Assembly: GCF_022965805.1 (NCBI RefSeq)
Contig: NC_133101.1
Span: 43,995,642-44,059,641, forward strand
DNA length: 64,000 nucleotides
Direction: 5' to 3'
Source of the DNA: Primulina eburnea
Lineage: Eukaryota > Streptophyta > Magnoliopsida > Lamiales > Gesneriaceae
Shown here: positions 8,788-64,000 of the stretch, in pieces
How positions within the stretch are numbered: the first letter of the stretch is position 1
Layout of the letters: every line of letters begins with the position of its first letter
The notes under the pieces: model-generated
Database searches by the model: none
What the model was told of the DNA's origin: nothing
What the model saw: the letters and a program-made list of their open reading frames with translations, nothing else
Position numbers and translations under genes: made by a program

Positions 8788-10412
8788 GCCAACTACCCAT
8801 ATGCTTCAAACCCATCGATTCACAATGCTTCTCGAATAATGGTCCAGGTAAAGGCTTAGTTAGCGGATCAGCAACATTATCTGTGGAGCCGACTTTGTCA
8901 ATCGAGACATCTCCTCTTTCCACAATCTCTCGGAGGATGTGGTACTTTCTCAATACGTGTTTGGATTTCTGATTAGACCTTGGCTCCTTTGCTTAAGCTA
9001 TAGCTCCCGTGTTGTCACACAATATCGGGACAGGAGCAACTCCATTAGGAATGACGTCCAACTTCTGGACGAAATTCCTTATCCAAATAGCCTCCTTTGC
9101 TGCATCTGATGCAGCAATGTATTCAGCCTCTGTGATGGAATACGTAGTACTGTCTTGCTTGGAGCCCTTCCAAGAGACAGCAGCACCATTGAGCATGAAT
9201 ACAAACCCAGAGATTGACTTCGAGTCATCGATATTGCTTTGGAAGCTAGAGTCGGTATAGCCTTCCAATTTCAGTTCTCCACCCCATAGACAAAGAACAA
9301 CTTATTGGTCCTTCTCAAATACTTGAGGATGTCTTTCACAGCTTTCCAATGTGGAAGACCAGGGTTGGATTGATATCTACTCACTACACTTAGTGCGAAA
9401 GCGACGTCAGGACGTGCAGATATCATCCCATACATGATGCTACCAATCGGAGACGCATAAGAAATGCTTTTCATCGCCGCTATCTCTGCATCAGTCTTGG
9501 GAGACATAGACTTGGATAGGGGCACGCCATGACACATTGGTAGATGTCCTCTCTTGGACTCATCCATCGAGCACCGCTTCACGATGGTATCAATGTATGT
9601 GGACTGGGTGAGACCAAGCAATTTTTTTTATCTATCTCTATAGATCCGTATTCCCAATACAAAATATGCTTCACCTAAGTCCTACATCGAGAACTTACTC
9701 GCTAACCATATCTTAGTTGATTGCAACATTCCTACATCATTCCCAATGCGTAGAAAGTTATCAACATACAGCACTAGGAATGACACAGCACTCCCACTGA
9801 CCTTCTTATACATATATGGTTCCTCAGGACTCTTAGTAAAACCAAAATCTTTGATTGTATTGTCGAATCTGAGGTTCCAACTCCTAAATGCCAGCTTTAG
9901 ACCAAAAATAGATCTCTGAAATTTGCATACCATATGCTCACTTCCAATAGATGTAAACCCTCAGGTTGAGACATGTAAATCTCTTCCTTAATATCCCAAT
10001 TAAGAAAGGATATCTTGACATCCATCTGCCATATCTCATAGCCATACCATGCAGCTATGGCTAGCAATATCTTTATAGACTTGAACATTGCAACTGGAGA
10101 AAATGTTTCCTCAAAGTCAACTCCTTGTCTTTGAGTATATCCTTTTGCCACCAATCGTGCCTTGAAGGTCAATACCTTCCCATCCGCCCCAATTTTCCTC
10201 TTGTAAATCCATTTACACCCTATGGGAACAATTCCCTCTGGTGGATCCACGAGATTCCACAATTGGTTTGAAAGCATGTAATTCATCTCAGATTCCATTG
10301 CTTCAAGCCATCTGGATGAATCGGCATCAGATAATGCTTCCTTGAAGGTCCTTGGATCACATCCATGGTTAGGTTCATCATGGTCCTCTTCAAGAAGCAG
10401 ACCATACCTCAT
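8788..10412 (-). pseudogene. COP-A reverse transcriptase and RNase H
   Basis: Frames at 9897-10412, 9682-9933, 9271-9621 and 8993-9268 together cover a copia RT-RNase H. The start includes WNLVDPPEG, GCKWIYKRKIG and ARLVAKGYTQRQGVDFEETF. The polymerase motif reads YVDN instead of YVDD, which removes a catalytic Asp. RNase H has GYTDSSF, EAEYIAASDAAKEAIW and CDNTGAIA; a stop follows, and the conserved tail SKHVLRKYHILREI and DPLTKPL is readable in the same direction down to about 8788. At least three frameshifts or stops separate the pieces. Product would be the reverse transcriptase polyprotein; it is dead here. Confidence 0.85.
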
Positions 10413-10502
10413 AGATGGTCTCGAGACTCTCTCTGATCTTCTAGGAGCTTGTATCTCCTCTTTTGGCTCTTCGGGTGTGGGTTCTATAATTGTGGGTGTC
10501 TC

Positions 10503-11395
10503 TCAAACCTCTTCGAGTTCTATCATCTCCCCTTTTCTATCTAATAGAAATTCCTTTTCCAAAAAGGTTGCATTCCTAGAAACAAACACTTTTGTTTCTT
10601 GGGGATGATAGAAATAATATCCAACTGAATTCCTTGGATATCCCACAAAGTAACATAAAATGGATCGACTGTCCAATTTATCTCCCACTACCTACTTCAC
10701 ATAAGCAGGGCACCCCCCATATTCTAAGATAAGAATATTTAGGTGGCTTACCCATCCATATCTCATATGGTGTCTTGTCAACTGCCTTTGAATGGACATT
10801 GTTCAACAACAGTGCCGCTGACTCAAGCGCATATCCCCAAAAAGGATGGCGGCAACTCCGTGAACCCCATCATACACCGAACCATGTCAATCAAAGTCCG
10901 ATTACGACGCTCCGAAACACCATTCAACTGCGGTGTAGCAGGCGGAGTCCACTGCGAGAGAATCCCATTCTCCCTAAGATACTCTTGGAACTCGGCACTC
11001 AAGTACTCACCACCTCGATCCGATCGAAGTGTCTTGATGCTTCGTCCCAACTGTTTCTCTACTTCACATCTGAATTCTTTGAATCTTTCAAAGGCTTCAG
11101 ACTTGTATTTCATCAAATACACATACCCATACCTCGAAAATTCATCGGTAAAGGTGATGAAGTAGGCATGTCCATGCTTAGTGGTGATGCTAAACGGACC
11201 GCAGACAACGGTATGGATCAAATCCAATAACCCTTTGACTCGCTCCACATGGCCCTTAAAGGGAATTTTGGTCATCTTTCCTTTCAGACAGGATTCACAA
11301 GTCGTGAGAGCATTAATATCAGACATATCAAACATGCCCACTCCCACTAGCTTGTTCATCCTTCTTAGGAAAAATGTCCTAATCGAGCATGCCAC
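10503..11395 (-). pseudogene. COP-A integrase
   Basis: The 190-residue frame at 10823-11395 carries the integrase core: CESCLKGK, then FITFTDEFSRYGYVYLMKY, LRSDRGGEYLS, and QLNGVSERRNRTL with the catalytic Glu. The first catalytic Asp seen in the sister copy (HTDVCGP) is Val here (HTVVCGP). The C-terminal part continues in a second frame at 10503-10688 (LDSRSILCYFVGYPRNSVGYYFY). The break between them shows a stop and probable frameshift. Integrase would insert the cDNA; this copy cannot work. Confidence 0.85.
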
Positions 11396-11499
11396 AATTG
11401 TGCCGATTTTAGAGTATCTTGTTTTCGCTTGTTTTTTGTTGTTATTTGTTGGACATTTTTTAGTGGAATATCTTTCAATTTTAAGTTATAGAGATCGTT

Positions 11500-12358
11500 T
11501 TAAAGTTCTCCAGTACCAATTAAACATTCATTCTTGTAAATGTTGCAAACACCTTTGCTAAATAAACAAGAATATCCATCTTTATCTAGCATAGAAATGG
11601 AAACAAAGTTTTTCACCAAATCAGGTACAAACAAAACATCTCTTAAAATTAACTTAAAATCATTGTTCAAAGGTAAGTAAACATCTCCTATGGCCTTGGC
11701 AGCAACTCTTGCTCCATTGCTCATCCTCAAGAAGGTCTCACCTTCCCTAAGCCTTCTACTTTTTCCCATCACCTGTAACTCATTACAGAGATGTGAGTCA
11801 CAACCGGTATCCAATACCCATGAAGTAGAGTTAATTGAAATGTTTACTTCAATATAGAACATACCGTTTCCAGAACTCTTCTGGGCAAGATATTCCCTGC
11901 AATTACGCCTCCAATGTCCAGGCTTCTTGCAGTGATGACATACATCAGTAGTCTTGTCAGCTTTCACTGGTATGGCTGCCACAATGGGACTAGGAGATTG
12001 CCTCTTCAAGGGCACGTTCTTCTTGGGACGCTGGAAATAACGCTTCTTTCACTTCCCAGGTGGACCAGTCTTCGTACTAGATGAAGAGCCCAGATAAAGA
12101 ACCGACTTCTCATCTTTCATAGAAGCCTGGATATAACACTTGGCTTTCAAGTCATGGTCACACCATTCCTTGTAAGTATGCAATTCCTCAGGAGTGCAGT
12201 AAGTCGGAGCCTCAACAGGGGACGACTTAGTTAAGTGTATACGCTATCCTTTCCGAATTCAAGACGATTTTCAGATTTCTTAGCCAATTAAGATAATTAG
12301 GTCTTGTTAATGCGTGTTTGTCGAGTATTATAGATAGCGAATTGCGAATCGAAGACAT
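11500..12358 (-). pseudogene. COP-A gag and protease
   Basis: The gag ATG lies at 12356-12358 and reads MSSIRNSLSI, then NYLNWLRNLKIVLNSERIAY, before a frameshift near 12235. The middle of gag is missing: the sister element has about 355 more bases here (26270-26625), so the coding sequence jumps from CYIQAS to EKSVLYLG. The frame at 11500-12015 (171 codons) has the zinc knuckle CHHCKKPGHWRRNC and the protease site WVLDTGCDSHL. The gag-protease part would package the RNA and mature the particle. Confidence 0.85.
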
Positions 12359-28933: not shown

Positions 28934-30233
28934 TATCTCTGTAATGATTTACATGTGATTAGAAGAAGTAGAAGACTTAGGGAAGGTGATACATTCTTGA
29001 GGATGGACAATGGAGCAAGAGTTGTTGCCAAGGCCATGGGAGATGTTTACTTATTGTTGAACAATAATTTTAAGTTGATTTTATGAGAATTTTTGTTTGT
29101 ACCTGATTTGGTGAAAAAAATTGTTTCCATTTCTATGCTTGATAAATATAGATATTCTTGTTGATTTAGAAAAGGTGTTTGCAACATTTACAAGAATGAA
29201 TGTTTAATTGGTACAGGAAACTTGAAAACGATCTCTAAAACTTAAAATTGAATGATATTCCACTGAACAATGTCCAAGCTATTACAACAACAAAAAAACG
29301 AAAACAAGGTACTCTAAATTCGACACAATTATGGCGTGACCGATTTCCCTAAGAAGGATGAACAAGCTAGTGGGAGTAGGCATGTTTGATATGTCTGATA
29401 TCAATTCTCTCAGGACTTGTGAATCCGGTCTGAAAGGAAAAATGACCAAAATTCCCTTTAAGGGCCATGTGGAGATAGCCAAAGGGTTATTGGATTCGAT
29501 CCATACCGATGTGTGCGGTCCGCTTAGTATCACCACTAAGTATGAACATGCCTACTTCATCACTTTTACCGATGATTTTCCAAGGTATGGGTATGTGTAT
29601 TTGATGAAATAAAAATTAGAAGCCTTTGAAGGGTTCAAAGAATTCAGAGCTGAAGTAGAGAAACAGTTGAGACGAAGCATCAAGTAACTTCGATCAGATC
29701 GAGGTGGTGAGTACTTGACTGCCGAGTTCCAAGAGTATCTTAGGGAGAATGAGATTCTCTCACAGTGAACTCCGCCTGCTACACCGCAGTTGAATGGTGT
29801 TTTGGGGCGTCATAACCGGACTTTGATGGATATGGTTTGGTCTAAAATATGGTTAACGGAGTTGCCGCCATCTTTTTGGGGATATGCACTTGAGACAGCG
29901 GAACTGTTGTTGAATAATGTCCATTCAAAGGCAGTTGATAAGACACCATATGAGATATGGATGGGTAAGCCTCACAAATATTCTTATCTTAGAATATGGG
30001 GATGCCCTGCTTATGTGAAGTAGACAGTGGGAGATAAATTGGATAGTCGATCCATTTTATGTTACTTTGTGGGATATCCAAGGAATTCAGTTGGATATTA
30101 TTTCTATCATCCCCAAGAAACACAGGTGTTTGTTGCTAGGAATGCAACTTTTTTGGAAAAGAAATTTCTATTGGATAGAAAAGGGGAAATGATAGAACTC
30201 GAAGAGGTTCGAGCAACACCCACAATTATATAA
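28934..30233 (+). pseudogene. COP-B protease end and integrase
   Basis: After the solo LTR the frame resumes with LREGDTFLRMDNGARVVAKAMGDVYL. Integrase follows: CESGLKGK (zinc-finger Cys changed to Gly), SIHTDVCGP with the first catalytic Asp, FITFTDDFPRYGYVYLM, LRSDRGGEYL, and NGVLGRHNRT, in which the catalytic Glu seen in COP-A (SERRN) is Gly. Stops occur at 29610, near 29685, near 29766 and at 30021. The C-terminal part (30027-30233) includes LDSRSILCYFVGYPRNSV. Confidence 0.82.
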
Positions 30234-31897
30234 CCAACACCCGAAGATCCAAGAGAGGAGATGCAAGCTCCTAGAAGATCCGAGTGAGTCTCGAGACCAC
30301 CTATGAGGTATGGTCTGCTTCTTGAAGAGGGCCATGATGAGCCTAACCATGGATATGATCCACTAACCTTCAAGGAAGCGCTATCTGATGCTGATTCATC
30401 CAAGTGGCTTGAAGCTATGGAATTTGAGATGAATTCCATGCATTCGAACCAAGTGTGGAATCTTGTGGATCCACATGAGGGACCTATTCCCATAGGGTGT
30501 AAATGGATTTACCAGAGGAAACTTGGGGGCGGATGGGAAGGTATTGACCTTCAAGGCGCGATGGTGGCAAAAGGATACACTCAAAGACAAGGAGTTGACT
30601 TTGAGGAAACCTTTTCTCCAGTTGCAATATTCAAGTCTATAAGGATATTGCTAGCCATAGTTGCATGATATGACTATGAGATATTGCAGATGGATGTCAA
30701 GACAACCATTCTTAATGGGGATATTAAGTAAGAGGTTTTCATATCTCAACCTGAAGGGTTTACATCTATCGAAAAAGTGAGCATATGTTATGCAAACTTT
30801 AGAGATCTATTTATGGTCTAAAGAAGGCATATAGGAGTTGGAACCTCATATTAGATAGTACAATCAAAGAGTTTGGTTTTACTAAGAATCCTGAGGAACC
30901 CTGTGTGTATAAGAAGGTTAGTGGGAGTGATGTGACATTCCTGGTACTTTATGTCGATGACATTATACTCATTGGGAATGATGTAGGGATGTTGCAGTCA
31001 ACTAAAATATGGTTAGCAGAAAAGTTCTCGATGCAGGACTTGGGTGAACAATCTTTTGTATTGGAAATACAGATCTATAGAGATAGATCAAGAAGATTGC
31101 TTGGTCTCATCCAGTCCACATATATTAATCCCATCGTTAAGCGGTTCTCGATGGATGATTCCAAGAGAGGACATCTATTAATGTGTCATCGCGTGTCCCT
31201 ATCCAAGTCTATGTTTCCCAAGATTGATGCAGAGATAGCGGTGCTGACAAGCATACCGTATGCATCTGCAATTGGTAGTATCATGTATGAGATGATATCT
31301 GCATGTGACGTGGCTTTTGCACTAAGTGTAGTGAGTAGATATCTATCAATCCCTGATCTTCCACACTGGAAAGCTGTGAAAGACATCCTCAAGTATTTGA
31401 GAGAGACCAATAAGTTGTTCTTGGTCGATGGGGGTGGGGAACTGAAATTGAAAGGCTATACCGACTCTAGTTTCCAAAGAGATATCGATTATTCAAAGTC
31501 AACCTATGAGTTCGTATTTATGCTCAATGGTAGTGCTATCTATTGGAAGAGTTTCAAGTAAGACAGTACTGCGGATTCCACCACTGAGGCCGAATACATT
31601 GTTGCATCAACTGCAGCAAAGGAGGCTGTTTGGTTAAGTAATTTCGTCCAAGAGTTGGGCGTGATTCCTAATGGAGTTGCTCATGTCCCGGTGTTTTGTG
31701 ACAACATGGGAGCCATAGCTCAGGCAAAGGAGCCAGGGTCTCATCAGAAATCCAAACATGTATTGAGAAAGTACCACATCCTCCGAGAGATTGTGGAAAT
31801 AGGAGAAAAGTCAATTAATAAAGTCGGCTCTGCAGATAATTTTGCTGATCCACTGACTATGCCTTTATCTAGGCCATTATTCGAGAAGAATCGCTAA
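30234..31897 (+). pseudogene. COP-B reverse transcriptase and RNase H
   Basis: The RT begins near 30303 (MRYGLLLEEGHDEPNHGYDP) and shows WNLVDPHEG, GCKWIYQRKL, VAKGYTQRQGVDFEETF. After several stops (30666, 30730, 30820 area) a long frame at 30905-31561 contains the intact YVDDIILIGND, LPHWKAVKDILKYLR and GYTDSSFQ. RNase H continues after a stop at 31559-31561 with EAEYIVASTAAKEAVW, CDNMGAIAQ and DPLTMPL. The polymerase Asp pair is kept although the frame is dead. Confidence 0.85.
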
Positions 31898-31932
31898 TCA
31901 ATTGGTTTGAAGCATATGGGTAGTTGACTTTA

Positions 31933-42264: not shown

Positions 42265-42721
42265 ATGTCTTCCTTCAATAAGATCCCAATGTTTTCCAGA
42301 GAAGATTTCGATGATTGGAAAATCAGGATGCAGGCTCACTTAGCTGCACAAGAGGATGATATGTGGTATGTCATCACTGACAGACCAATGAAGATTCTGA
42401 AACTGAAAGCCAACACAACAGTTGAAATCAACGATGGGGCACCTCATAGAAATGAAAAGCCCAGAGATAAGTGGACTGCTGAGGACAAAATAAAAATAAA
42501 TCTGGATAACGTGGCAAAGGATATACTATTCAAAACGCTGGATAAAATAACTTTCAGCAAGATAAAAATATGTAAGACAGCTAAAGAAATTTTGGAAAAG
42601 CTGATCCAGCTTTGTGAAGGGAATGAACAAACCAAAGAGAATAAACTTTCTGTTGCTGTTCAGAAGTTTGATAATATCAAGATGAGGACTGGAGAATCGA
42701 TGCATGAGTATGATGAAAGAA
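42265..42721 (+). pseudogene. SIR-B gag, first part
   Basis: The frame begins MSSFNKIPMFSREDFDDWKI and matches the SIR-A gag over about 150 residues, up to ESMHEYDERI. There GYC is inserted; TCAGC at 42722-42726 is the target duplication. The N-terminal region is the Sirevirus/copia gag domain (WYVITD, KIQLC-type EGNEQTKENK). The remaining codons read into the GYC LTR are not real coding sequence. Confidence 0.88.
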
Positions 42722-42726
42722 TCAGC

Positions 42727-46624: not shown

Positions 46625-46629
46625 CAAGG

Positions 46630-47572
46630 TGATAGGATCGGTTAACTCAAGGTGAAAGTGTTTAGAAGGGGGGGGGGGGGGGGGTTGAATAAACACTTGC
46701 TAGATTAAAACTTCTTCGAAAGGTTGGGTTCAGTTTTGTTACAAACTGACTCAAGTATCTCGTCGGTCGATATCAATCAGTTAAACTGAATAAAACAGTT
46801 GCGGAAAACTAACTGACTGAAAGATAGAATGAATAACTGAAAGTAAATAACACAGGAAATGTTTCTGGATGTTCGGAGACTTGAATAACTCCTACGTCAC
46901 CCCTTCTATCACAAAGATAGGATATACACTAAAAGACTTTGATCAAATACAGTAACGTGTACTGACCCACTTCAGTTTGGACTTATCTATTGCCAAAACT
47001 GAAACTCTTAGTTAACAACTCTTTTACAGATCACAACTGATCTTAGCACAACTTGTACAATTTATCAAAGATTACAAAGTGCTTTTTCTAGCTCAAAACG
47101 TAGCCTGAATGCTACTGATAAAACTGATAAGCTTGAGCTTTGATTTGAAGTTGAGAGAATATTTTCGCAGAGTAACAGCAAGTAAAATGAGTAGTTCAGA
47201 AAATCGGTAGTTCTTCAGCTGCTCTCTTCGACTATTTATAGGCTTCTGTTTCAACGGTAACATTTATTTGAATAACAGCCGTTGTTTGCCACGTCGATAT
47301 TCTCTGACAGATCGTACACTGCAACTTTCTGATATGCGGCGTTCCACTACTACTGTTGCAGTTAGACTGTACTATATGTCGGTTGTTGCAATCAATTGAT
47401 GAAGTGTTCAGTTAGGAACACACTTTACTGATCGATGGTTGAGGCGCTTAAATAGTAGCTGAATGATCAGTTACGTAACCAGTTAGTAACTTCGATGCGT
47501 AAATCAGTTGCTTGATTCAGTTACTTGGTTCAGTTGGTTAATTTGTCAAACTCCGGAATAAGATTTCCAAAA
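46630..47572 (-). repeat. SIR-A 3' LTR
   Basis: On the plus strand it begins TGATAGGATCGG and ends GATTTCCAAAA, where the 5' LTR has GATTTCCAACA, so the outer TG of the 3' LTR is TT here on the minus strand. It carries a 17-G tract (46668-46684), a TATA box at 47232-47240 (minus) and 15 copies of AACTGA/TCAGTT. Confidence 0.9.
46668..46684 (+). repeat. Poly-G tract (17) in the SIR-A 3' LTR
   Basis: An uninterrupted run of 17 G. The 5' LTR has 19 G at 57491-57509, and SIR-B has only C6 on the other strand at about 42165-42170. It lies about 40 bp from the inner LTR end. Confidence 0.9.
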
Positions 47573-47713: not shown

Positions 47714-50324
47714 TTAGGCTTCTCTCTGTTTCTTCAGTAGTTCTTTCAGTTCATCCCTGATTAGCTCTTTCAGTTCTTCCCCCTTTTTGTCAAACAGGGC
47801 TACTTGAACTGATAATTTCTGCACGTGATTTGATAGAACGGAGATGGAGGTAGAAAAATTTTCGATTGAAGTCTGGATGAGCAGTTGTAGCGCATCCATT
47901 TTCCTGGACATAAGTGTCTGAACTTCATCAACTTTACTGTTAGAAGACTTCTGAGAAGTAGTAATACAAGCAGCTATTCCTTTGAATTTTTGAACTTCGA
48001 GGACTGCTGCAGTTAATAAACGAATGTCCGCCTGTATTACAGTCAATTGCTCTTTAGTGAATTCATGAGACTGATCTTGTTTCAAGGTGTGGGACAGCTG
48101 AGTGTTTTGCATATTCGTCATTGCTGTCACCATTGTGTTCATGTTATTCTGCATATTTTGGATCTCTTTAAGAACTAGATCCATGTCTGAGACTTCTTGA
48201 GGATGAGAGAAATCTGATCCTTTTGTAGTTTGATCAAAAATGATCAACGATTTATCAGTCTTGTCCATCTCATGAGAAATGTTGACATCAGTTGTAACAA
48301 TCTCTGCCTGTACTGAATGAGGTGAAGAGAGAATGTGAAGAGTAGGCGATCCAGTGGTCTCTACAACTGGTACCTCTTTAGATTGATCAGTTTCGGTCAC
48401 TGACACTTCAGTTGGAGACAACTTCTCAGCAGATACATCTAGCTGAGCTAATGTAGAATCTTGTGGAATAGAGTGATCAACGGAGTGATCAACTGAATCA
48501 GTTCTAAGAGCATCCTTCGGAGATTCTTGCAATACTGTCTGGATTATTTCATCGATGGTGGCAAAAGAGAGATCAGCCTCAGAGTATAGTTGTTTTTCAG
48601 CAGTTGGTGAAGTCTGAACTGGCAGTTCAGTTGAAGGAAAAACCTGTTCAGTGTTTATAGTTTGCTGCTGTGGTTCCGCAGTCACCATCTCTGTATTGCT
48701 TTCATTATCAGCAGACGTGCCTTTGTGAAATACCAATTCCTGATCTAATTCCCAAAATTTGATTTGTGATTGAATTCCGATTAGATCAGTATCCAGCTGA
48801 GTGATCGCGGCTCTATCGGAATAAGCAGTTGGATCAGTGGGAGTGTAGTTCGTTTTCAGAGATTCCAAAATCTGAGCCAACTTCTTGGCCCTTACTTGAT
48901 CAAAGAAATAATTTCTGCGATGCAGAGCCTGGACAATTGTAGCTGCCTTGACAGTTTTGAGAACGATGTTTTCCAACTTAATAAATTTGTCCAGTTGGGA
49001 CTTTTTCTTCAGTTGTTTAGGCAAAAACTTCTGTCCTGAAGGCTGTCCAGCTATCATATGCCACAAGTTGTGTAGCAGCAAAACCATTGACTTGTTCCCA
49101 TACAAGATCAATGTGAGTTTGAATGGAGTTGGTGGGTCTGGGTTTTTCAATCAGCTTTTCTTTTCCCTTGTCTGAACTTAATATATGAGGAATATCAAGT
49201 CCAGTATTCGTTGTTTCAACTCTTTCAATAATTGAAATACCCTTTGGCCTAGCCTGGGCTAATACAGCAGGGGTCTTGACCTTAGTCAGAGGAGCTTTGA
49301 TCAAGACTGATTTTTCAGTTTGGCCCGGAATAACCACTTTTAAGGGCACTGCTTCAATGGGCTTTTGAGTACTGGAAGAGGGAGCCTTTTCAGCAAGAAT
49401 ATTGACCTGAAATTTTGCTGGTTTGGACTTACGAGTCCTTGGTTTCTTTGATATTGTAGGTGAAGGAGTTTCCTCGGACTCAGATTCAGTTATTATCAGT
49501 TTTCTCTTAACTGATTTCGATTGAGCCAAAGACTTGGCCTTCTTAACTGATTTTGGAGCAGTCTGTTGATCTCCTATCTCCTTCTTTACTGCAATAAAGT
49601 TAACAGGGGAGATATCCAATTTGATTTTGATGGGCTGGGTGTTTTTGGCATTAAAGACCTTGAACTTTGCCGTTGTCTCAGAATCATTACCCACCAAACT
49701 TTTGACTTTCATCAAATAACTGATCTGCACAGCAAATCCTTTAGACTGTTTCGGTGAGACAAACATATTCTTCAAAATTGTAAACAGAAAATGTTTCCAG
49801 TTAAACTTCCGTTCCGTCATGATGATCGCCATGGCTTGAAATTTCTCAAGGGTCAAAGCAGCGAAAGAACCTGCTTTAGCGAGAAGACCCTTTGCAACAA
49901 CATCTGCTAACAACTGTACCTCTTGCTTGAGTTCCTTCTTTGGGTCTGAGACTTTAATCTTCTGCCCATCAGTTGACAGTTTAGTTTGCATTTCCTCTAT
50001 GTCTGATGCTTTTACCTCTGATAGAAGTGTCATGCCATCAGATGGCAGTAGAAAGGCTTCTCCGAATGAATCTTCGGATATGATCAGTTGTTGGTTGTTG
50101 ATTATTGAAACAATTTCTCCAGCATCATTGATTTGCCCAGAAGAATAGAATTCTTGAATCTCCTTTACGTATATTTCCTGAGAATATTGGCCCAAGAATT
50201 TCTTCAATCCAGCTGTATCTAGTTTCTGAAATACTTTCTTTACTTCAGTGTCCCCAAAGGATAGAATGGATCCAAAATTTATCGCCATTGCATTCATTAT
50301 GTATGCTGGTGTTTGATTCGCCAT
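47714..50324 (-). pseudogene. SIR-A long accessory frame (in the 'env-like' position), one frameshift
   Basis: Two frames, 49017-50474 and 47714-49150, overlap by 134 bp and together look like one protein of about 870 residues. The likely ATG is at 50322-50324 (MANQTPAYIMNAMAI). The A5 run at 49023-49027 is a likely frameshift site, where TEVFA-stop of the first frame becomes KFLPKQLKKKSQLDKFIK in the second. The N-terminal 250 residues form a folded-looking domain (EFYSSGQINDAGEIVSI, FGEAFLLPSDGMTLL, AKAGSFAALTLEKFQAMAII, WKHFLFTILKNMFV). The middle is basic (KKAKSLAQSKSVKRK, KKPRTRKSKPAK), suggestive of nuclear targeting. The C-terminal 150 residues have heptad-like leucine spacing and end DELKELLKKQREA, a probable coiled coil. 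I see no signal peptide or membrane segment, so it is unlikely to be an envelope. Function unknown. Confidence 0.75.
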
Positions 50325-50885
50325 TTCTGAAGATGCGTAGATTCCTGAAACGAAGAGAGAATAAGTTTTGGTGATAAACTCTGAGAACTTAGAATAGCTG
50401 AAAGCGTAAGGACGATGAACTGAATTGAAGCGGGTAAAGTAATGAAATGTGTGACTGTTTGAATTATCGGACACGTGTCAGTCCATGAAAAATTTAAAAA
50501 AAAACGTGTGTATGTGTGTACTAAGCAAGTGGATAATTCAAATGATTGGGAAAGTGTCACGCTGCAACCTCTGAGTGGTTGTCAGAGAGCATTTAATGCT
50601 GGTAAATCAGTCACGCTGGTATATCTGAATAAAATATGATTAAATGAATAACGTATGTGAGAAGATTAGAAAAATTCTCAACTGAACTATCAGTTAATAA
50701 AAATTGAGCGAGTTCAGTCGAGATTTTGCTAACAACTGACTTCTCAGTTATCATTTTAAATCAGATTATTCCCCCTTAAAACATGCTGGAACTGAAGGTT
50801 GAAGCATTAAAACAGAAGAAAATCTTATTGCTTAGGAGATTAATCGTCGGCTGATGTCATCAATTTATCTTGCGTCATCCTGTGC
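50325..50885. other. Divergent intergenic region of the SIR-A accessory block
   Basis: About 560 bp between the accessory frame (leftward) and the first antisense gene (rightward). It holds the G-box at 50472-50477, an A9-type run near 50493, and TGATGTCATCA at 50852-50862, 24 bp before the TATA box. No reading frame of its own is credible. Confidence 0.5.
50472..50477 (-). promoter_or_regulatory. G-box (CACGTG) upstream of the accessory frame
   Basis: CACGTG within GGACACGTGTCAG, about 150 bp before the likely ATG at 50324. It is a candidate bZIP/bHLH site; a function is inferred only from position. Confidence 0.35.
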
Positions 50886-50893
50886 TATAAATA
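50886..50893 (+). promoter_or_regulatory. TATA box of antisense gene 1
   Basis: TATAAATA in CCTGTGCTATAAATACAAG, 58 bp before the ATG at 50944. The second antisense gene has the same box 59 bp before its ATG, in the similar context CCTGTTCTATAAATAAGA. Confidence 0.6.
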
Positions 50894-50943
50894 CAAGTAA
50901 ATCAGTTAGATTTAAACATATATCATTTAAGCGACAAACACAA

Positions 50944-51369
50944 ATGGCAAGAGCTGGAATTTTAAGAGTTCCTGACGATGCTACGACTTTCATGGAAGCA
51001 GCTGAGGCCAAAATGAGATCTGCTATAGAAGAGCAGATATATGATGAGGTGCTAGGCCTTTGGGAAAGACTGCAGGAACTTCAGGTGCTGTACTATAGTG
51101 GAGAGGTGAATACTCCACGACTGATGGCCAAAATAAGCAAGTACCGGGAACGTTTGCACGTTTCCGAAACTTTTGATTTCTTTGATGACCCGCATATCTA
51201 TCAGTTGATGGTGTACAAAGAAAGAGGAGCTTTGAGGAAGCTCATCCGCTCAAACAGCTATGGCAAGAGTTCTACTCCAGCAATAAGAGGATGGGTGTCC
51301 ATATGGATGATCTATATGGAACAAAAATATCTTGATGTAATCAGAGAGAATTTCTTCAGATCCTGTTAA
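50944..51369 (+). CDS. Antisense accessory gene 1 of SIR-A, 141 residues, unknown function
   Basis: This frame lies on the strand opposite to the retrotransposon genes, between pol and the long accessory frame. It begins MARAGILRVPDD, reads without interruption and ends IRENFFRSC. The region from LQELQVLYY to MEQKYLDVI is charged and helix-rich, with no membrane segment or signal peptide. I chose the ATG at 50944 rather than the in-frame ATG at 50854 because the latter lies upstream of the TATA box and the former aligns with the start of the paralogue at 51617. Homology to gene 2 is clear at protein level (KYRERLH/KYRARLH, YQLMVYKE/YELMLRKE, G-W-x3-W, DVIRENF/DVIKNNF) although the DNA is much diverged, which points to selection on the protein. 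I do not recognise a domain. Confidence 0.72.
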   Translation: MARAGILRVPDDATTFMEAAEAKMRSAIEEQIYDEVLGLWERLQELQVLYYSGEVNTPRLMAKISKYRERLHVSETFDFFDDPHIYQLMVYKERGALRKLIRSNSYGKSSTPAIRGWVSIWMIYMEQKYLDVIRENFFRSC

Positions 51370-51557
51370 TGAATGAATCTTGTTTCTTATTTATCAACTG
51401 CTGTCTTGTCAGTTAATTTCGTAACCCTTAATGTTTCCCCTGAATACAAGCATTAATAAGAAAGATAACACTAAAGACCAGATTAAATAAATCCTGAAAT
51501 ATAGAAGATTGATCGACGTTGAAAAAGTAGCGTCCTTTCGTCTTCCTCATCCTGTTC

Positions 51558-51565
51558 TATAAATA
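51558..51565 (+). promoter_or_regulatory. TATA box of antisense gene 2
   Basis: TATAAATA 59 bp before the ATG at 51617; preceded by CCTCATCCTGTTC, similar to GCGTCATCCTGTGC before the first box. Confidence 0.6.
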
Positions 51566-51616
51566 AGATTGAAGCGGTTAGTAACAAATATCTTTAAGAA
51601 ACAAGGTTAGAATAAA

Positions 51617-52039
51617 ATGGCAGACGCTGGTACTTCTAAAACGTTGATGAAGGTAGAAGAGATAATGAAGACAGCTTTGGAGCGCATGAAGATGCAAGTA
51701 GAAGACGAAGTTTTCCAGTATATCCTTCAATATCAAGAAAATCTCCAGGGGCTCCATGTCCTCTAGGAGAATGAAATGGCTACCATTCCTAAACAACAGA
51801 GAAAGCTCGAGAAGTATCGAGCCCGACTGCATGAGTTCAACGTGGAAGACGTTTTCAGACCTGACAATCTTTACGAGTTAATGCTCCGTAAAGAGAAGAA
51901 ACTCCTGGAGAGTGTAGCTGCATCACCCAGCTTTGTTTCCATTCAGGTTGAAGACTTGGGAGCATGGTTAAAGAACTGGAAGGAGTCTGTTGATCAAGAA
52001 CTGAAGGATGTAATCAAAAACAATTTTAACAGTTATTAA
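51617..52039 (+). pseudogene. Antisense accessory gene 2 of SIR-A, one in-frame stop
   Basis: The frame begins MADAGTSKTLMKVEEIMKTA and ends DVIKNNFNSY after 141 codons including the final stop. One TAG (51764-51766) interrupts it after 49 residues, at the place where gene 1 has a Tyr codon (TAC), so a single base change explains it. Otherwise the frame is open and colinear with gene 1. Both genes start with MA-x-AG and are close to 140 codons, and the start-to-start distance is 673 bp, so this is an old tandem duplication. With the stop the product may be a 49-residue peptide or a protein from the later ATG at 51776. Confidence 0.7.
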
Positions 52040-52186
52040 TGAAAAGCTAGTATTTTTAGTTTTGTTATAATATGCAACGATCAGTTTTATCAGTCTCAGA
52101 AATTGATAAGATGCTAAAACAGAACAAAACAAAACTAATAAGCGACAAAAAAAAATGAACAGCTGATGTACGTCCATTGAACTGAT

Positions 52187-53572
52187 TTAAGATAACTCAA
52201 TTAAACCAAGTATATTTCTAAAATGAGAAAACTTAGTCTCGGGTAGTGGTTTGGTGAAGATATCAGCTGCTTGTTGTTCAGTTGAGACGTATTCCAGTCT
52301 GATTTCCTTCTTGAGAGCATGATCTCTGATGAAGTGATGTCTGACATCTATGTGTTTGGTTCGAGAGTGAAGAACTGGATTGTAGGTTATAGCAATTGTG
52401 CTTGTGTTGTCACAAAATATAGGTGATTCTTTAGCATCAACTCCATAATCTCTCAGTTGTTGCTGAATCCAGAGCAGTTGGGCACAACAGCTTCCAGCAG
52501 CAAGATATTCTGCTTCAGTTGTGGAAGTTGCTATGGATGTTTGCTTTTTGCTGAACCAAGAAATCAGTCGGTCTCCTAGAAACTGACATGATCCACTTGT
52601 ACTTTTTCGATCAAGTTTACATCCTGCATAGTCTGCATCTGAATAACCAACTAAATTGAAAGATGAATCTTTAGAATACCATAACCCAACATTTTGTGTG
52701 CCTTTAAGATATTTCAAAATACGTTTGGCAGCAGCAAAATGTGATTGCTTAGGATTTGCCTGAAATCTAGCACACATACAGACAGCAAACACAATATCAG
52801 GACGACTAGCAGTTAGATACAATAATGAACCTATTAAACCTCTGTAAAGCGTCGTCTCAACTGATATTCCCCCTTGATCAGTGTCTAGTTTAACTGATGA
52901 GCTCATGGGAGTGCTTGCAGCTGAACACGATTCCGTGCCAAATTTCTTTAGCAATTCCTTTGTATATTTTGTTTGACTGATGAAGGTGCCTGAATCCAAT
53001 TGTTTCACTTGTAATCCAAGAAAGAATGTCAGTTCACCCATCATGCTCATTTCGAATTTTTCCTGCATCAACTTAGCGAATTTCTCACATAATTTGGGGT
53101 TAGTTGACCCAAATATGATATCATCAACATAAATTTGAACAAGTAAGATATGATCATTCTTAGAAAATTTGAACAACGTCTTATCAACTGATCCAACAGA
53201 AAAATCATGATCAGTTAGAAATTTTGAAAGAGTTTCGTACCAAGCTCTTGGAGCTTGTTTAAGACCATATAAGGCTTTGTTCAAATGATAGACATGATCA
53301 GGAAGGTGATGATTAACAAAACCTGGAGGTTGTTCAACAAAGACTTCTTCCTGCAACTGTCCATTCAGAAATGCGCTTTTAACATCCATCTGGTACACTT
53401 TGAAATTTTTGAATGATGCATAGGCCAGGAATATTCTTATTGCTTCCAGTCTTGCAACTGGTGCATATGTCTCATCATAATCAATTCCTTCTTCCTGCCT
53501 GTATCCTTGTGCAACTAGCCTTGCTTTGTTGCGCACAACTGAACCATCCTCGTTCAGTTTGTTCCTGTATAC
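52187..53572 (-). CDS. SIR-A reverse transcriptase and RNase H (after the stop)
   Basis: The frame continues from the integrase without a frameshift but after a TAG at 53573-53575. It contains [56 protein letters not shown] and the intact polymerase motif [11 protein letters not shown]. RNase H has [43 protein letters not shown] and the tail [15 protein letters not shown]. It ends GLIELS just before the antisense genes. The protein copies the element RNA into DNA. All catalytic residues I can place are present. Confidence 0.9.
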
Positions 53573-55390
53573 CTATTTTGTACCTATAACAGTTTTTGAC
53601 ATTGGTCTTGGAACTAAGTTCCAGACATTATTATGGATAAACTGATTTAGCTCTTCTTGCATAGCATTTATCCAGTTAGGATCAGCAAGAGCTTCATCAG
53701 TTTTCTTTGGTTCCAGTTGAGATACAAAAGCTGAATGAATGAATAAGTTAAGCATTTGATTTCTCGTTCTTACCGGATCAGATGGATTACCTATCACCAA
53801 TTCTGGAGGATGTGATTTCTTCCATCTGAGTTCAGCATTTGTTGATTCCAAATTGGTAACTGCTTCAGTAGGTAACTGATTGGTTTCAGTTTCAGTTGGA
53901 GCTGTTTCAGTTGGCAACTGAATCTCATTTGTTTGTTCTACTAACTGATTAGCTTCCAATTCAACAGCCTGATCTAATATCTCAGGTTCAGGTGTTTGGA
54001 GATTGCTTTGATTCATATGAATATTTTCTTCATCATCATCTTCCAAACTGATATCTGTAAATCTGTCAGCTAGCTCAACTGTATCAGTTGGCTTATCAGT
54101 TAGTACAGTTTCATCAAAAACAACATGAATGGATTCTTCAACATTTAAAGTGTTTTTGTTGAAGACTCTGTAAGCTTTACTTACTGATGAATAACCGAGA
54201 AATATTCCTTCTGCAGATTTAGCATCAAAAGCTTTTAAATGAGTTTTACCATTGTCGAGTATAAAACATCTGCAGCCGAATATTTTAAAATAAGAAACCA
54301 CACTTTTTCTTCCATGCCAGATCTCATACGGTGTTTTCAAATGATTCTTATTAATCATTGATCTGTTTTGAGTGTAACACGCAGTGTTCACTGCTTCTGC
54401 CCAAAACCTTTGAGAGATACTAGAATCAGCAAGCATTGTTCTAGCAGCTTCCTTAAGTGTTCGATTTCTCCTTTCAGCTACACCATTTTGCTGAGGAGTT
54501 CTTGCTGCTGAGAGTTCATGTTTGATTCCAGTATTCTCTAAATAATTTGAAAGAATTTGATTGATGAATTCAGTTCCTCGATCGGATCTGATTCTGTCAA
54601 TTCCAACTGATTTTTCATTTGATAATCTTTTGAAAAGCTTGATCAGTTGAGCAGCAGTTTGGTCTTTGGTCTTGAGAAAAATGACCCATGTGAATCTAGA
54701 AAAATCATCTACAACCACCAAGGTGTATTTCATTCCCCCTAAGCTCATCACCGGTATTGGACCAAAGAGATCCATATGTAACAGCTCTAAGCAACGGGAA
54801 GAAGATTTACGACCCTTGTACTTAAAAGAAGATTTGATTTGTTTGCCAAACTGACATGCTGAGCAAATTTTGTCTTTTGTAAAATCCATTTTGGGCAGCC
54901 CAGTAACAAGATCATGTTTACTCAAATATGCAATGGATTTGAAATTCAAGTGGTTTAGCCTCTTATGCCATAACCAGTTTTTCGAAGATTTTGAAGCAAT
55001 AAGACACACTGGTGCATAGGGTTGATCATTCCAGCTGACTTTGTATGTGTTTCCACATCTTTTGCCAGTTAGAATGATCTCATCAGTTGAGTTTTTGACT
55101 GAGCAAATGAGTTTGTCAAATTGAACTGAAAATCCATTATCGCATAACTGACTGATGCTTATCAGATTATACTTGAGATTTTCAACTAATAAAACATTAT
55201 TAATGACAAAATTACCATGGATAAGCTTACCCTTACCCACAGTTGTACCTTTCGAGTTGTCTCCAAAACTAATCTTTGGTCCAGTGTATTTGACTAGTTG
55301 AGATAATAACCTTGAATCTCCTGTCATGTGGCGTGAACATCCACTGTCTAGATACCATATAGATCCAGTGCTTGTATCTGTTACCTGCAG
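53573..55390 (-). CDS. SIR-A protease and integrase, ends at a nonsense codon
   Basis: The frame opens after a TGA at 55391-55393 and starts VTDTSTGSIWYLDSGCSRHM, with the protease DSG motif. The pre-integrase domain has H-x3-H and C-x2-C (WLWHKRLNHLN, ICSACQFGK). The integrase core reads ELLHMDLFGP, VVVDDFSRFTW, RSDRGTEFIN and QQNGVAERRNRT, giving the D, D and E residues. The segment ends TVIGTK followed by TAG (53573-53575) where other copia elements have Trp (here followed by [10 protein letters not shown]), so TGG-to-TAG is likely. The protein would process and integrate the element. Confidence 0.88.
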   Translation of the reverse strand: MQVTDTSTGSIWYLDSGCSRHMTGDSRLLSQLVKYTGPKISFGDNSKGTTVGKGKLIHGNFVINNVLLVENLKYNLISISQLCDNGFSVQFDKLICSVKNSTDEIILTGKRCGNTYKVSWNDQPYAPVCLIASKSSKNWLWHKRLNHLNFKSIAYLSKHDLVTGLPKMDFTKDKICSACQFGKQIKSSFKYKGRKSSSRCLELLHMDLFGPIPVMSLGGMKYTLVVVDDFSRFTWVIFLKTKDQTAAQLIKLFKRLSNEKSVGIDRIRSDRGTEFINQILSNYLENTGIKHELSAARTPQQNGVAERRNRTLKEAARTMLADSSISQRFWAEAVNTACYTQNRSMINKNHLKTPYEIWHGRKSVVSYFKIFGCRCFILDNGKTHLKAFDAKSAEGIFLGYSSVSKAYRVFNKNTLNVEESIHVVFDETVLTDKPTDTVELADRFTDISLEDDDEENIHMNQSNLQTPEPEILDQAVELEANQLVEQTNEIQLPTETAPTETETNQLPTEAVTNLESTNAELRWKKSHPPELVIGNPSDPVRTRNQMLNLFIHSAFVSQLEPKKTDEALADPNWINAMQEELNQFIHNNVWNLVPRPMSKTVIGTK

Positions 55391-55423: not shown

Positions 55424-57394
55424 TTATTTGGGTCCAAAGTTGATTAGTCCTTTAGGAATCCAAACTTGGATCAGTCTGACTGACCGTCCAGTTGCTGTAT
55501 TCCATATGGTCCTTCTCGTTTTGTGTGTGCTTTGTGTGTGATGCATAGGTGAAACAATATGTGATTTTGCCTTTCCCAACTGATTGTTCGGCCGATATCG
55601 TTTCTGAACAGGCTTACAGTTATAGTAGTTGGAGTATTCATTTGAAAATCGTTTTGAAATTCTTTTCGATGTTTGACCACGAGAGTCAGTTGAAACGTTT
55701 GGACTATATCCAATACCATATCTATTTGCCTTGTTCTTGTTCTCAATGGGCGGTTCAATCAGTTTACTTGGTTCAAGCTGTTCTTGTTCCACGACTGATT
55801 TGACAAAGCGAATGAATTTTCCTTTGCCCATATTCAGTTGTGGCTGAGTATCATTGGAAGACATCTCACTTTGACTACTGAATCCTAGTCCAGTCTTGTC
55901 AGCAACTGATTTTTGCGAATTTTGAATATCAGTTAGAGCTGCTGAAGATTTATTCCAAGCCTGAATGAGCTCGTTGTGCTTTGCATTTTCAAACATCAAT
56001 TTTTGAATCAACAATTGATTCCTGCTCTTTTCAGCATTCAGCTCAGCAATTTCCCTTCTTAGACTCAACATATCAACTGACTGATCAGTTTTAGTATTGT
56101 TGTCCAAGGGATCATCTTGCTTTGCTCTGGCTTTATCAAATGATAGAGCAAGCTTTTGATACTCGCTGACCATGTCATGAAGAGTCGAAATAAGCTCTTC
56201 TCTAGTGAAATCAGTTGAGCTAAAGTCGAATACCTGCTGATTGTCTGATTGATCTTCTGTCTCATCAGCCATCAGACACTTGACTTCTTCCTCTTCTTCA
56301 CTAGAACTGTATGAGGTTTCTGCTTCTGACTCATCACTGTCAGTCTCTGCCCATTTGGTTTTGCTTTCTTCAGCTACTAGCACTTCATGCTTCTTTTTAT
56401 AGGTTTTCCTTTCATCCTTAGGTCTCCTTTTGTGCTCATATGATTTCTTTTTCCGTTCAGTTGAGACTTGACTGTCTTTCTTTGGTTTTGGGCAGTCAAC
56501 AATGAAATGTCCTGGCTTTCCACAGCTATAGCAAGCGTTTGAATCTTCTCTGGAGTTATTTCTTTGGTAGCTCTTCTGAAAATTTCCCTGATTCTTCCTC
56601 ATGAATCTACCAAACTTTCTGATAAACAATGACATAGCATCATTGCTCAATTGATCTGCAGCTTTTTCAACTGAGCCAGTTGGTTCTGTTCTTATAGCAG
56701 TTAGAGCAGTAGTTGATGAAGGTGTTGATGGTTCTGCTTCTCCTCGAGTTTGTAACTCAAACTCATAAGCTTTCAGATCAGCAAACAAATCATGAATTTC
56801 AACTTTGTTCAAGTCTTTTGATTCCCTCATGGCCATTGTCTTGACATCCCATTCCCTGGGAAGTCCTCTGATAATCTTGAGAGCCACTTCTTTATTTGTA
56901 TACACTTTTCCAAGTGCATTCAGTTCATTTATGATTCCACTGGTTCTTTCATCATATTCAAGCATTGATTCTCCAGCTTTCATTTTGATGTTGTCAAACT
57001 TCTGTACAGCAACAGAAAGTTTGTTTTCCTTTGTTTGCTCATTTCCCTCGCATAACTGAATCAGCTTTTCCCATATCTCTTTTCCTGTCTTGCACATCTT
57101 GATCTTACTGAACGTTATCTTGTCCAGTGTTTTATACAGTATGCCCTTGGCTACATTCTCAAGGTTTGCTTTTCTTTTATCTTCAGCAGTCCACTCATCT
57201 CTGGGTTTTTCGATTCTATGAGGTGCCCCTTCGGTGATGGCAACTGCTGTGTTTGCTTTCAGAATTTTCATTGGCCCGTCAGTTATGACGTACCACATAT
57301 CATCATCTTGTGCAGCTAAATGAGCCTGCATTCTGATTTTCCAGTCGTCAAAGTCTTCCCTGGAAAACATAGGAATTTTGTTGAAAGAAGACAT
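55424..57394 (-). CDS. SIR-A gag, 656 residues, intact
   Basis: Begins MSSFNKIPMFSREDFDDWKI. The N-terminal 220 residues are the copia gag domain (MWYVITDGP, LCEGNEQTKENKLSVAVQKFDNI, LGKVYTNKEVALKIIRGLP). A zinc knuckle CYSCGKPGHFIVDC lies near residue 290. An acidic, Ser-rich region (DSDESEAETSYSSSEEEEEV) and a coiled-coil-like region (REIAELNAEKSRNQLLIQKL) follow. It ends WIPKGLINFGPK at a TAA in frame with pol. A long gag with these C-terminal extensions is usual for Sireviruses. It makes the particle shell and binds RNA. Confidence 0.9.
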   Translation of the reverse strand: MSSFNKIPMFSREDFDDWKIRMQAHLAAQDDDMWYVITDGPMKILKANTAVAITEGAPHRIEKPRDEWTAEDKRKANLENVAKGILYKTLDKITFSKIKMCKTGKEIWEKLIQLCEGNEQTKENKLSVAVQKFDNIKMKAGESMLEYDERTSGIINELNALGKVYTNKEVALKIIRGLPREWDVKTMAMRESKDLNKVEIHDLFADLKAYEFELQTRGEAEPSTPSSTTALTAIRTEPTGSVEKAADQLSNDAMSLFIRKFGRFMRKNQGNFQKSYQRNNSREDSNACYSCGKPGHFIVDCPKPKKDSQVSTERKKKSYEHKRRPKDERKTYKKKHEVLVAEESKTKWAETDSDESEAETSYSSSEEEEEVKCLMADETEDQSDNQQVFDFSSTDFTREELISTLHDMVSEYQKLALSFDKARAKQDDPLDNNTKTDQSVDMLSLRREIAELNAEKSRNQLLIQKLMFENAKHNELIQAWNKSSAALTDIQNSQKSVADKTGLGFSSQSEMSSNDTQPQLNMGKGKFIRFVKSVVEQEQLEPSKLIEPPIENKNKANRYGIGYSPNVSTDSRGQTSKRISKRFSNEYSNYYNCKPVQKRYRPNNQLGKAKSHIVSPMHHTQSTHKTRRTIWNTATGRSVRLIQVWIPKGLINFGPK

Positions 57395-57452: not shown

Positions 57453-58397
57453 TGATAGGATCGGTTAACTCAAGGTGAAAGTGTTTAGAAGGGGGGGGGG
57501 GGGGGGGGGTTGAATAAACACTTGCTAGATTAAAACTTCTTCGAAAGGTTGGGTTCAGTTTTGTTACAAACTGACTCAAGTATCTCGTCGGTCGATATCA
57601 ATCAGTTAAACTGAATAAAACAGTTGCGGAAAACTAACTGACTGAAAGATAGAATGAATAACTGAAAGTAAATAACACAGGAAATGTTTCTGGATGTTCG
57701 GAGACTTGAATAACTCCTACGTCACCCCTTCTATCACAAAGATAGGATATACACTAAAAGACTTTGATCAAATACAGTAACGTGTACTGACCCACTTCAG
57801 TTTGGACTTATCTATTGCCAAAACTGAAACTCTTAGTTAACAACTCTTTTACAGATCACAACTGATCTTAGCACAACTTGTACAATTTATCAAAGATTAC
57901 AAAGTGCTTTTTCTAGCTCAAAACGTAGCCTGAATGCTACTGATAAAACTGATAAGCTTGAGCTTTGATTTGAAGTTGAGAGAATATTTTCGCAGAGTAA
58001 CAGCAAGTAAAATGAGTAGTTCAGAAAATCGGTAGTTCTTCAGCTGATCTCTTCGACTATTTATAGGCTTCTGTTTCAACGGTAACATTTATTTGAATAA
58101 CAGCCGTTGTTTGCCACGTCGATATTCTCTGACAGATCGTACACTGCAACTTTCTGATATGCGGCGTTCCACTACTACTGTTGCAGTTAGACTGTACTAT
58201 ATGTCGGTTGTTGCAATCAATTGATGACGTGTTCAGTTAGGAACACACTTTACTGATCGATGGTTGAGGCGCTTAAATAGTAGCTGAATGATCAGTTACG
58301 TAACCAGTTAGTAACTTCGATGCGTAAATCAGTTGCTTGATTCAGTTACTTGGTTCAGTTGGTTAATTTGTCAAACTCCGGAATAAGATTTCCAACA
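57453..58397 (-). repeat. SIR-A 5' LTR
   Basis: On the plus strand it begins TGATAGGATCGG and ends GATTTCCAACA. It is the same as the 3' LTR except for three substitutions (near 58047, 58227 and the outer end) and two extra G in the G tract at 57491-57509. It drives the element RNA. Confidence 0.93.
58057..58065 (-). promoter_or_regulatory. TATA box of the SIR-A 5' LTR
   Basis: TATAAATAG on the minus strand, about 330 bp from the outer LTR end. Transcription would start about 30 bp further. The same box is in the 3' LTR (47232-47240) and in SIR-B (35944-35952). Confidence 0.7.
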
Positions 58398-58402
58398 CAA
58401 GG

Positions 58403-62729: not shown

Positions 62730-64000
62730 TCAGCTGTATCATCAATGAACTAAATGCACTTGGAAAAGTGTATACCAACAAAGAATTTGCGTTAAAAGTG
62801 ATCAGAGGTCTTCCCAAGGAGTTGGACTTTAAGACCATGGCAATGAGGGAGTCAATGGATCTAAACAAGGTTTAGCTTCATGACCTATTTGCTGATCTGA
62901 AGGCCTATGAGTTTGAGCTGCAAACTCGAGAAGGAGAACCCTCTACTCCAGCAGTCACAACTACCTTAGCTGCTGTAAGAACAGAACCAATTGGTTCAGC
63001 CGAGAAGGTTGCTGATCAACTAAGCAATGATGCCATGTCATTTTTCATCAAAAAATTCGGAAGATTTATGAGAAAAATCAAGGGAACTTCCAGAAGCATT
63101 ATCAGAGAAACAATTCTAAAGAGGAATCAAACGCTTGCTACAACTGTGGCAAACCCGGTCACTTCATTGCTGACTGTCCCAAACCTGAGAAGGACAGTCA
63201 AGGCTCGACTGAAAGAAAGAAGAATTCGTATGAGCACAAGAGGAGACCCAAGGATGATAAGAAGTCTTTCAGGAAGAAGCATGAGGTACTCTTAGCTGAA
63301 GAGAGTAAATCAAAATTGGCAGAAACTGACAGCGAAGAGTCAGAGCCAGAAACCTTATGCATTTCCAGTGATGGTGAAGAGGAAGTGAAGTGTCTAATGG
63401 CTGCTGATACAGAAGTGGAGTCAAGCAGTCAACTTGTATTTGACTTTAGCTCAACTGATTTCACTAGAGAAGAACTCATTTAAACTCTTCATGACATGGT
63501 TAGTGAGTACCACAAGCTTGTCTTATCTTTTGAAAAGGCTAGAGCAAAGAAAAATGATCCCATAGACAATAAAACTAAAACTGATGTATCAGTTGATGTG
63601 TTGAGTCTAAAAGAGGAAGTTGCTGAGCTCAATGCTGAAAGAAGCAGAAATCAATCAATGATTCAGAAGTTTATGCTTGAAAATTCAAAGCAAACTGAGC
63701 TTATTCAGGCTTGGAACAAATCATCTGATGCATTAACTGATATACAGAACTCACAGAAATCAGTTAATGATAAAACTGGTTTAGTGTTCAGTAACCAAGA
63801 TGAAATGTTTTGCAATGATACTCGACCAAAACTGAATATGGATAAAGGGAAATACATTCACTTTGTCAAATCAGTTGTGGTACAAGAAAAAACAGAGCCA
63901 AGTAAACTGGTTGAACAGCCTACTGAAAGTACGAACAAGGCTAAAAGATATGGTATTGGTTATAGCCCAAAAGTTTTAACAGACTCACGTAGTCAGTCGT
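62730..64000 (+). pseudogene. SIR-B gag, second part, runs off the window
   Basis: Resumes after GYC as CIINELNALGKVYTNKEFALKVIRGLP, exactly where the SIR-A gag continues. A stop follows LNKV (near 62874). A frameshift near 63075 separates GRFMRK from the zinc knuckle CYNCGKPGHFIADC (about 63137-63180). Another stop interrupts REELI-stop-TLHDMV (near 63481). The acidic region (ETDSEESEPETLCISSDGEEEV) and coiled-coil-like region (KEEVAELNAERSRNQSMIQKF) are kept. The gene is older and more decayed than the SIR-A copy. Confidence 0.87.

Follow-up and report, generated by a model that had tools for sequence, protein, structure and literature searches.

Two homologous genes of about 140 codons are carried antisense behind pol by a SIRE-type Ty1/copia element of Primulina eburnea, and the same gene family was found in Retand-type Ty3/gypsy elements of that genome. 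The reading we favour, with a confidence somewhat better than even, is that of a small accessory gene family housed in two superfamilies, equipped with its own promoters, swapped as a module and encoding a trans-acting, host-facing protein. The window analysed is a stretch of 64,000 nucleotides (C1:43995642-44059641), and the genome searched comprised 812 Mb.

The SIRE-type element in the window

The window contains a Ty1/copia SIRE-type element on the minus strand, bounded by the TSD CAAGG on both sides (46625..46629 and 58398..58402, no strand, from flank comparison). Its insertion site lies within a Ty3/gypsy RT gene, the reading frame of which runs on once the flanks are joined. On the minus strand, the 5' LTR (57453..58397; LTR alignment, right end set by the TSD) is followed by gag (55424..57394; Retrotran_gag_2 and CCHC zinc knuckle), the integrase part of pol (53573..55327; rve and gag_pre-integrs) and the RT/RNase H part of pol (52187..53536; RVT_2), all recognised by Pfam domains. 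Behind them lie the first frame of ORF3 (49017..50474, 485 aa), the second frame that it overlaps (47714..49150, 478 aa, sense, in env-like position, without a Pfam match), both taken from the ORF list, and the 3' LTR (46630..47570; LTR alignment). A PBS, TGGTATCAGAGC, stands after the 5' LTR on the minus strand, and its motif AGTGGTATCAGAGC we take to be of the tRNA-Met type (tRNA-iMet). One GGGGGAAATTT tract precedes the 3' LTR. The two LTRs are identical in 939 of 943 aligned columns and the TSD is intact, in agreement with the first-pass annotation, which had called the element young. Both LTRs hold a run of 17 to 19 G (about 46668-46684 and 57491-57509), the length of which differs by 2.

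The gene order is copia-like, with integrase ahead of the RVT_2 reverse transcriptase and a copia-type gag with CCHC, and a large sense ORF (ORF3) is located behind pol, ahead of the 3' LTR, as in SIRE. According to the accessible text of PMC6317226, such an ORF behind pol (eORF-3'F) occurs in 74% of SIRE elements, and multiple PPT copies and CGG-CCG repeat boxes are given as SIRE marks in that of PMC2829016. From its structure, together with the label of the earlier reader, the element is putatively assigned to the SIRE lineage.

The window copy is damaged by an in-frame stop of pol ahead of the RT part (53573-53575), by a stop in gene B (51764-51766) and probably in ORF3 (overlap 49017-49150), which looks frame-broken because its two overlapping frames correspond to a single frame of at least 811 aa in the relative L031. 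Such damage in a young copy suggests that it may have moved in trans, or decayed soon after insertion. Elsewhere in the window, gag pieces of further SIRE relatives were found close to the element on the plus strand (42265-42726 and 62732-63999; 86% and 63-73% identical), as were two more distant copia-like pol regions (8807-11652, minus; 29397-31909, plus).

Antisense genes A and B and their relatives

Gene A (50944..51369, plus strand) encodes 141 aa and is intact according to the ORF list and codon models. Gene B (51617..52039, plus strand) spans 140 codons and was recognised by its homology to A and by open copies elsewhere. Both sit between pol and ORF3, on the strand opposite to the two. 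With the B sequence taken from copy L002, where B is open, BLASTP aligned A and B at 31% identity over 137 aa (E 3e-21). Two homologous antisense frames of about 140 codons, within 50325..52186, had been proposed from the sequence. The homology and the frame of A hold, whereas B of the window copy is interrupted by an in-frame TAG at codon 50, and the low end of that interval (50325-50474) is the start of ORF3.

Among the first 30 family loci fetched, which were picked by similarity to A, A was open in all 30, an outcome favoured by this sampling. B was open from the ATG (137 or 140 codons) in 25 of them; the other five comprised one stop (the window copy), two lost starts, one frameshift and one locus in which B was not found within the fetched stretch.

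Genome-wide counts are lower bounds. For A, the best 150 of 4708 candidates were scored, at least 41 of them at 92-100%, one at 81%, six at 51-60% and 102 at 48% or less, with no stop in 80 of these 102 places. The lowest class is mixed among the loci read with context, since L040-L050 are Retand-type and L038, L039, L070 and L077 are SIREs. For B, the best 150 of 4711 comprised at least 39 at 87-100%, 8 at 71-81% and 103 at 47-59%. The SIRE relatives L033-L038 each carry one such gene, antisense and adjoining ORF3, and pol where in reach; no pol is apparent in L036, the RT part of L031 is mostly gone, and ORF3 of L039 is only partly in reach. B-type genes occur in three further SIRE loci, L075, L076 and L077 (B identity 81, 59 and 54%; RT 99, 94 and 87% over the fetched parts), with no A-type neighbour among the A-query matches listed.

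The same gene family in Retand-type elements

Homologs of A (Retand a) lie antisense to pol, adjoining TRP28, in Retand-type Ty3/gypsy elements of the same genome. Most of L040-L050 have, next to the A homolog, one or two more related genes (b and c), again of about 140 codons; behind this set, the strand that carries it also encodes a protein with the Pfam domain Transposase_28. TRP28 similarity on the strand of the gene was detected in 10 of 11 Retand-type 8-kb loci (missing in L040), and PF04195 in all three candidate proteins scanned, that of L043 falling just below the gathering score. This sharing was missed by the first-pass annotation, which had named elements of this very kind as bearers of antisense frames.

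Gypsy pol was located on the opposite strand in both elements fetched for it (L051 and L074). L047 and L051 are parts of a single element; its LTRs (946 bp) share 99.2% identity, and its Ty3/gypsy gag-pol is on the opposite strand. In L051, RT_RNaseH (880-980) is followed by RVT_3 (1025-1134) / RNase_H (1011-1092); the ORF after that encodes integrase, and repeats of about 100 bp form an array at L051:2004-2537. For the second subfamily, L045, gypsy pol on the opposite strand was reached via L074 (70% identical). In the available part of PMC6317226, a second RNase H (aRH) between RH and INT marks Ogre and Retand. Judged by aRH, TRP28 and repeats, the elements carrying the a, b and c genes are of the Retand type (PMC11963269, PMC6317226, as far as their accessible texts go). 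SIRE and Retand differ in their gag and RT domains (Retrotran_gag_2 and RVT_2 versus Retrotrans_gag and RVT_1), and the integrase core rve is found in both.

The Retand b and c genes (L047:5219-6633, L045:4903-5334, L048:4924-5358 and others) make up a small family without a Pfam entry, and two relatives of them, P0001 and P0002, were found in other public data. The gene of L039 (SIRE) and that of L042 (Retand) have a pS of 0.42, below most within-SIRE pairs, possibly owing to a later exchange, or to noise on 138 codons.

TATA boxes and upstream regions

A TATA box, TATAAATA, was recognised from sequence and conservation on the plus strand ahead of each gene, 58 bp before the ATG of A (50886..50893) and 59 bp before that of B (51558..51565), exactly as the first-pass annotation had placed them. 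The similar upstream context that it described was likewise recovered: the 35 nt around the two boxes are 80% identical, and alignment of the 110 nt ahead of each gene scores 8.4 SD above dinucleotide shuffles.

TATAWAW was sought 40-80 nt before the ATG, excluding rows without a covered start. It was present in 36 of 36 rows of A (L001 and the window being one copy entered twice), 27 of 27 rows of B, 6 of 7 single-gene SIREs (6 of 8 including L070), 12 of 19 Retand a rows (12 of 18 without L070) and 11 of 14 Retand b/c rows, against a background of 2.7% of random stretches from the same loci. One of the 7 upstream regions lacking the motif at this distance in the Retand a group of 19 is that of the SIRE L070. 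For the Retand b and c genes, the box mostly lies 42-46 nt before the ATG.

Six SIRE genes were compared in their upstream regions, which proved homologous to one another (z 7.1-16.5), as did those of three Retand elements (z 4.3-8.5). Comparisons of SIRE with Retand were mostly near background (z -0.7 to 4.6), with a top score of 4.6 (L038-L042) that exceeds the lowest score within Retand, 4.3. This pattern is consistent with the SIRE genes being one lineage with promoters of the SIRE type and the Retand gene having a promoter apart from theirs. A and B carry what look like RNA polymerase II promoters of their own, from which the gene would be transcribed free of LTR control.

Purifying selection on the protein

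Omega was estimated with codon models (IQ-TREE GY+F3X4), 2dlnL being taken against omega 1. A is under purifying selection: its dN/dS, in a set picked by similarity, is not near 1 but 0.24-0.25. Omega was 0.242 among young A copies (23 rows, 2dlnL 21), a set that admitted uninterrupted frames alone and is biased to low omega because the copies were ranked by protein similarity to A. It was 0.226 when L031 was added (2dlnL 43) and 0.248 for A with the single-gene SIREs (7 rows, 2dlnL 90). Similar values were obtained for Retand a (0.285; 20 rows, one of which, L070, is a SIRE; 2dlnL 132) and Retand b/c (0.272; 12 rows, 2dlnL 109). The B-type lineage with L070, L075, L076 and L077 gave 0.363 (7 rows, 2dlnL 51), and the B copies of the window family, which are only weakly constrained, gave 0.563 (22 rows, 2dlnL 3.8, borderline). 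These values indicate that the gene family encodes protein, although for B within the window family the evidence is weaker. Together with the conserved TATA box of each gene, they uphold the proposal that a SIRE/Sirevirus-type element carries conserved protein-coding genes in antisense.

Two probably old gene lineages and a probable transfer between superfamilies

Trees with A and B as sisters were rejected (p-AU 6e-6; 0.003 with L031; 0.003 with L031 and L036), and after the addition of L075, L076 and L077 such a tree had an lnL lower by 109. The 'duplicated cassette' of the first-pass annotation is not supported by this result, nor by the B-type SIREs without a listed A neighbour; A and B did not arise by a recent duplication, and the pair looks like two old lineages placed side by side.

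A-type SIRE genes and Retand a share one branch (99/97), apart from B, L075, L076, L077 and L070, so that SIRE and Retand genes are interleaved. The best tree puts Retand a within SIRE diversity and does not unite B, L075, L076, L077 and L070 in one clade, although a single clade of these five had a p-AU of 0.125. A single clade of all SIRE genes (p-AU 0.06) and one of Retand a (p-AU 0.15) were not rejected either. On the simplest reading of the gene trees, there was a transfer between superfamilies, and most likely the family has passed between them at least once. As to direction, the place of Retand a within SIRE diversity stands against the Retand b/c genes and their relatives P0001 and P0002 elsewhere, which argue for an older home in Retand; the family may have moved either way, once or more often.

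Exchange of the region behind pol

For the same element pairs, dS of gag, integrase and RT was 0.24-0.84, whereas that of gene A and ORF3 ranged from 1.2 to saturation, except in the closely related L031 and in a stretch of 90 codons from L039. Likewise, the single-gene SIREs have 45-61% identity in A versus 86-94% in RT. The clearest case is L075. Compared with the window, its RT has a dS of 0.026 (176 codons) and its B a dS of 0.389 (139 codons). When L075:1-1201 is set against window positions 51500-52720, identity per 60-nt segment is 95-100% until pol ends and 55-95% past about 52180. In L012, a copy of the window family used as control, identity was 98-100% in pol and 88-100% through the gene to the end of the fetched piece. 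The sharp switch in L075 at the pol end implies that the region behind pol was exchanged as a module, and we take it for a recombination breakpoint that separates the backbone from the accessory region. A faster synonymous rate behind pol could account for part of the dS contrasts, but hardly for L075.

Recombination of this kind would be a simple route to an element with A and B, and the A-type and B-type genes may well have been brought together in this way from two elements. Alternatively, A and B could descend from an old tandem duplication inside SIRE, with the one-gene elements having lost the other copy. The homologous upstream regions of A and B (z 8.4) and the SIRE-type promoters of both lineages are what this history would leave behind, but it needs several losses of either copy, and L075 has swapped the region behind pol while its pol stayed nearly identical; we consider it rather doubtful. 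Because the region behind pol recombines apart from the backbone, classification by RT tells little of accessory content.

Predicted protein and possible role

AlphaFold2 models of A (pLDDT 85.1, pTM 0.75; 22 alignment rows) and of a distant Retand b protein (pLDDT 84.5, pTM 0.74; 15 alignment rows) are all-helical and have an identical helix order; the two are not fully independent, since their alignments have rows in common. A convincing known relative was found neither by sequence nor by fold. The pI ranges from 4.8 to 9.6 across eight a-type and two b/c proteins, and this varying charge gives no support to general nucleic-acid binding.

A and B belong to one accessory family of about 140 codons, predicted to be all-helical, which lies antisense to gag-pol and inhabits the unrelated superfamilies of SIRE (Ty1/copia) and Retand (Ty3/gypsy). 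Once translated, the protein would act in trans, and its partner may be a host factor of silencing, chromatin or nuclear traffic. A host partner appears more likely than an element part because SIRE and Retand share the host and have different gag and RT families. By analogy with VANC, and with ideas in the accessible texts of PMC7264820 and PMC11963269, counter-silencing or transcriptional regulation would be the most natural classes of function. Antisense transcripts might equally feed dsRNA silencing. More tentatively, both superfamilies might share a reservoir of small antisense genes with promoters of their own, encoding helical proteins that act against a host defence, for example, transcriptional silencing; the cassettes would move behind pol, and two old variants would have been stacked to widen reach.

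The protein could instead face the element, aiding its own particles or genomic RNA, for example, as a partner of Gag or ORF3, and be common to both superfamilies because small helpers move easily. The gene adjoins ORF3, both evolve fast compared with pol, and TRP28 and coiled-coil genes accompany the family in Retand, all of which would suit such a role. We nevertheless think it unlikely, because a partner specific to the element would need replacing whenever the gene passed between elements of different gag and RT families. Independent capture of the gene by both superfamilies from a plant host gene is distinctly improbable. LTR elements are known to capture host genes (PMC7264820, accessible text), and the SIRE and Retand promoter regions are not clearly related; against this, Pfam, PDB and large databases yielded no relative of evident cellular origin, and the SIRE and Retand genes are interleaved. 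In the genome itself, viewed via the best 150 places per query, an unlinked host copy may still exist. That the antisense RNA is the active product (as dsRNA or by promoter interference) and the frame incidental would accord with the possible regulatory role of retrotransposon antisense transcription (PMC7264820, same text) and with the stop in B of the window copy, but it is the least probable account, since the protein is under strong purifying selection in SIRE and Retand alike.

As a compact conserved protein of 141 aa in two unrelated superfamilies, A is a tractable candidate, and because any function would have to operate beside very different gag and RT proteins, the search narrows to host factors or general steps.

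Comparison with known systems

The maize element Grande belongs to Ty3/gypsy. Its gene23 is antisense, lies behind pol and has its own upstream promoter, as described in the available text of a review (PMC7264820). It resembles A and B in its antisense position behind pol, whereas the promoter of A and B is predicted from a conserved TATA box and their element is Ty1/copia; the likeness is one of description. The same text states for plant retrotransposon antisense genes, as of 2020, that the function is not known, the origin mostly not known, and that there is no similarity to other elements. Antisense ORFs of Retand, with TRP28/PF04195, lie between pol and the 3' LTR (Vicient 2025, PMC11963269); the A homologs are similar and are found shortly before TRP28 on its strand. 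In its accessible part, that study centres on ORFs >600 bp and TRP28 and mentions neither 140-codon genes nor Ty1/copia cases.

In SIRE, the divergent eORF-3'F or env-like gene behind pol (Neumann 2019, PMC6317226, accessible text) corresponds to ORF3 here and is on the sense strand, unlike A and B. That survey set its lower limit for ORFs at 250 codons, which 140-codon genes do not reach; such a limit, or a focus on >600 bp as in PMC11963269, can miss genes of this size. Bdelloid rotifers provide a parallel in ORF3, an accessory ORF type found, as here, in unrelated retroelements, although those ORFs encode enzymes in an animal host and the available text of PMC5408684 does not describe an antisense self-promoted gene. 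VANC of VANDAL, an anti-silencing protein (PMC5735166, accessible text), is a model for a transposon-encoded host-facing accessory protein; it belongs to a DNA transposon, and A is likened to it by analogy alone.

In the literature searched, mostly outside subscription journals, we found neither an antisense gene in SIRE nor a gene common to SIRE and Retand. Antisense genes in Ty3/gypsy, one of them (Grande gene23) with its own promoter, are already known from the sources above. The distribution of this family suggests that unrelated retrotransposons exchange a helper gene.
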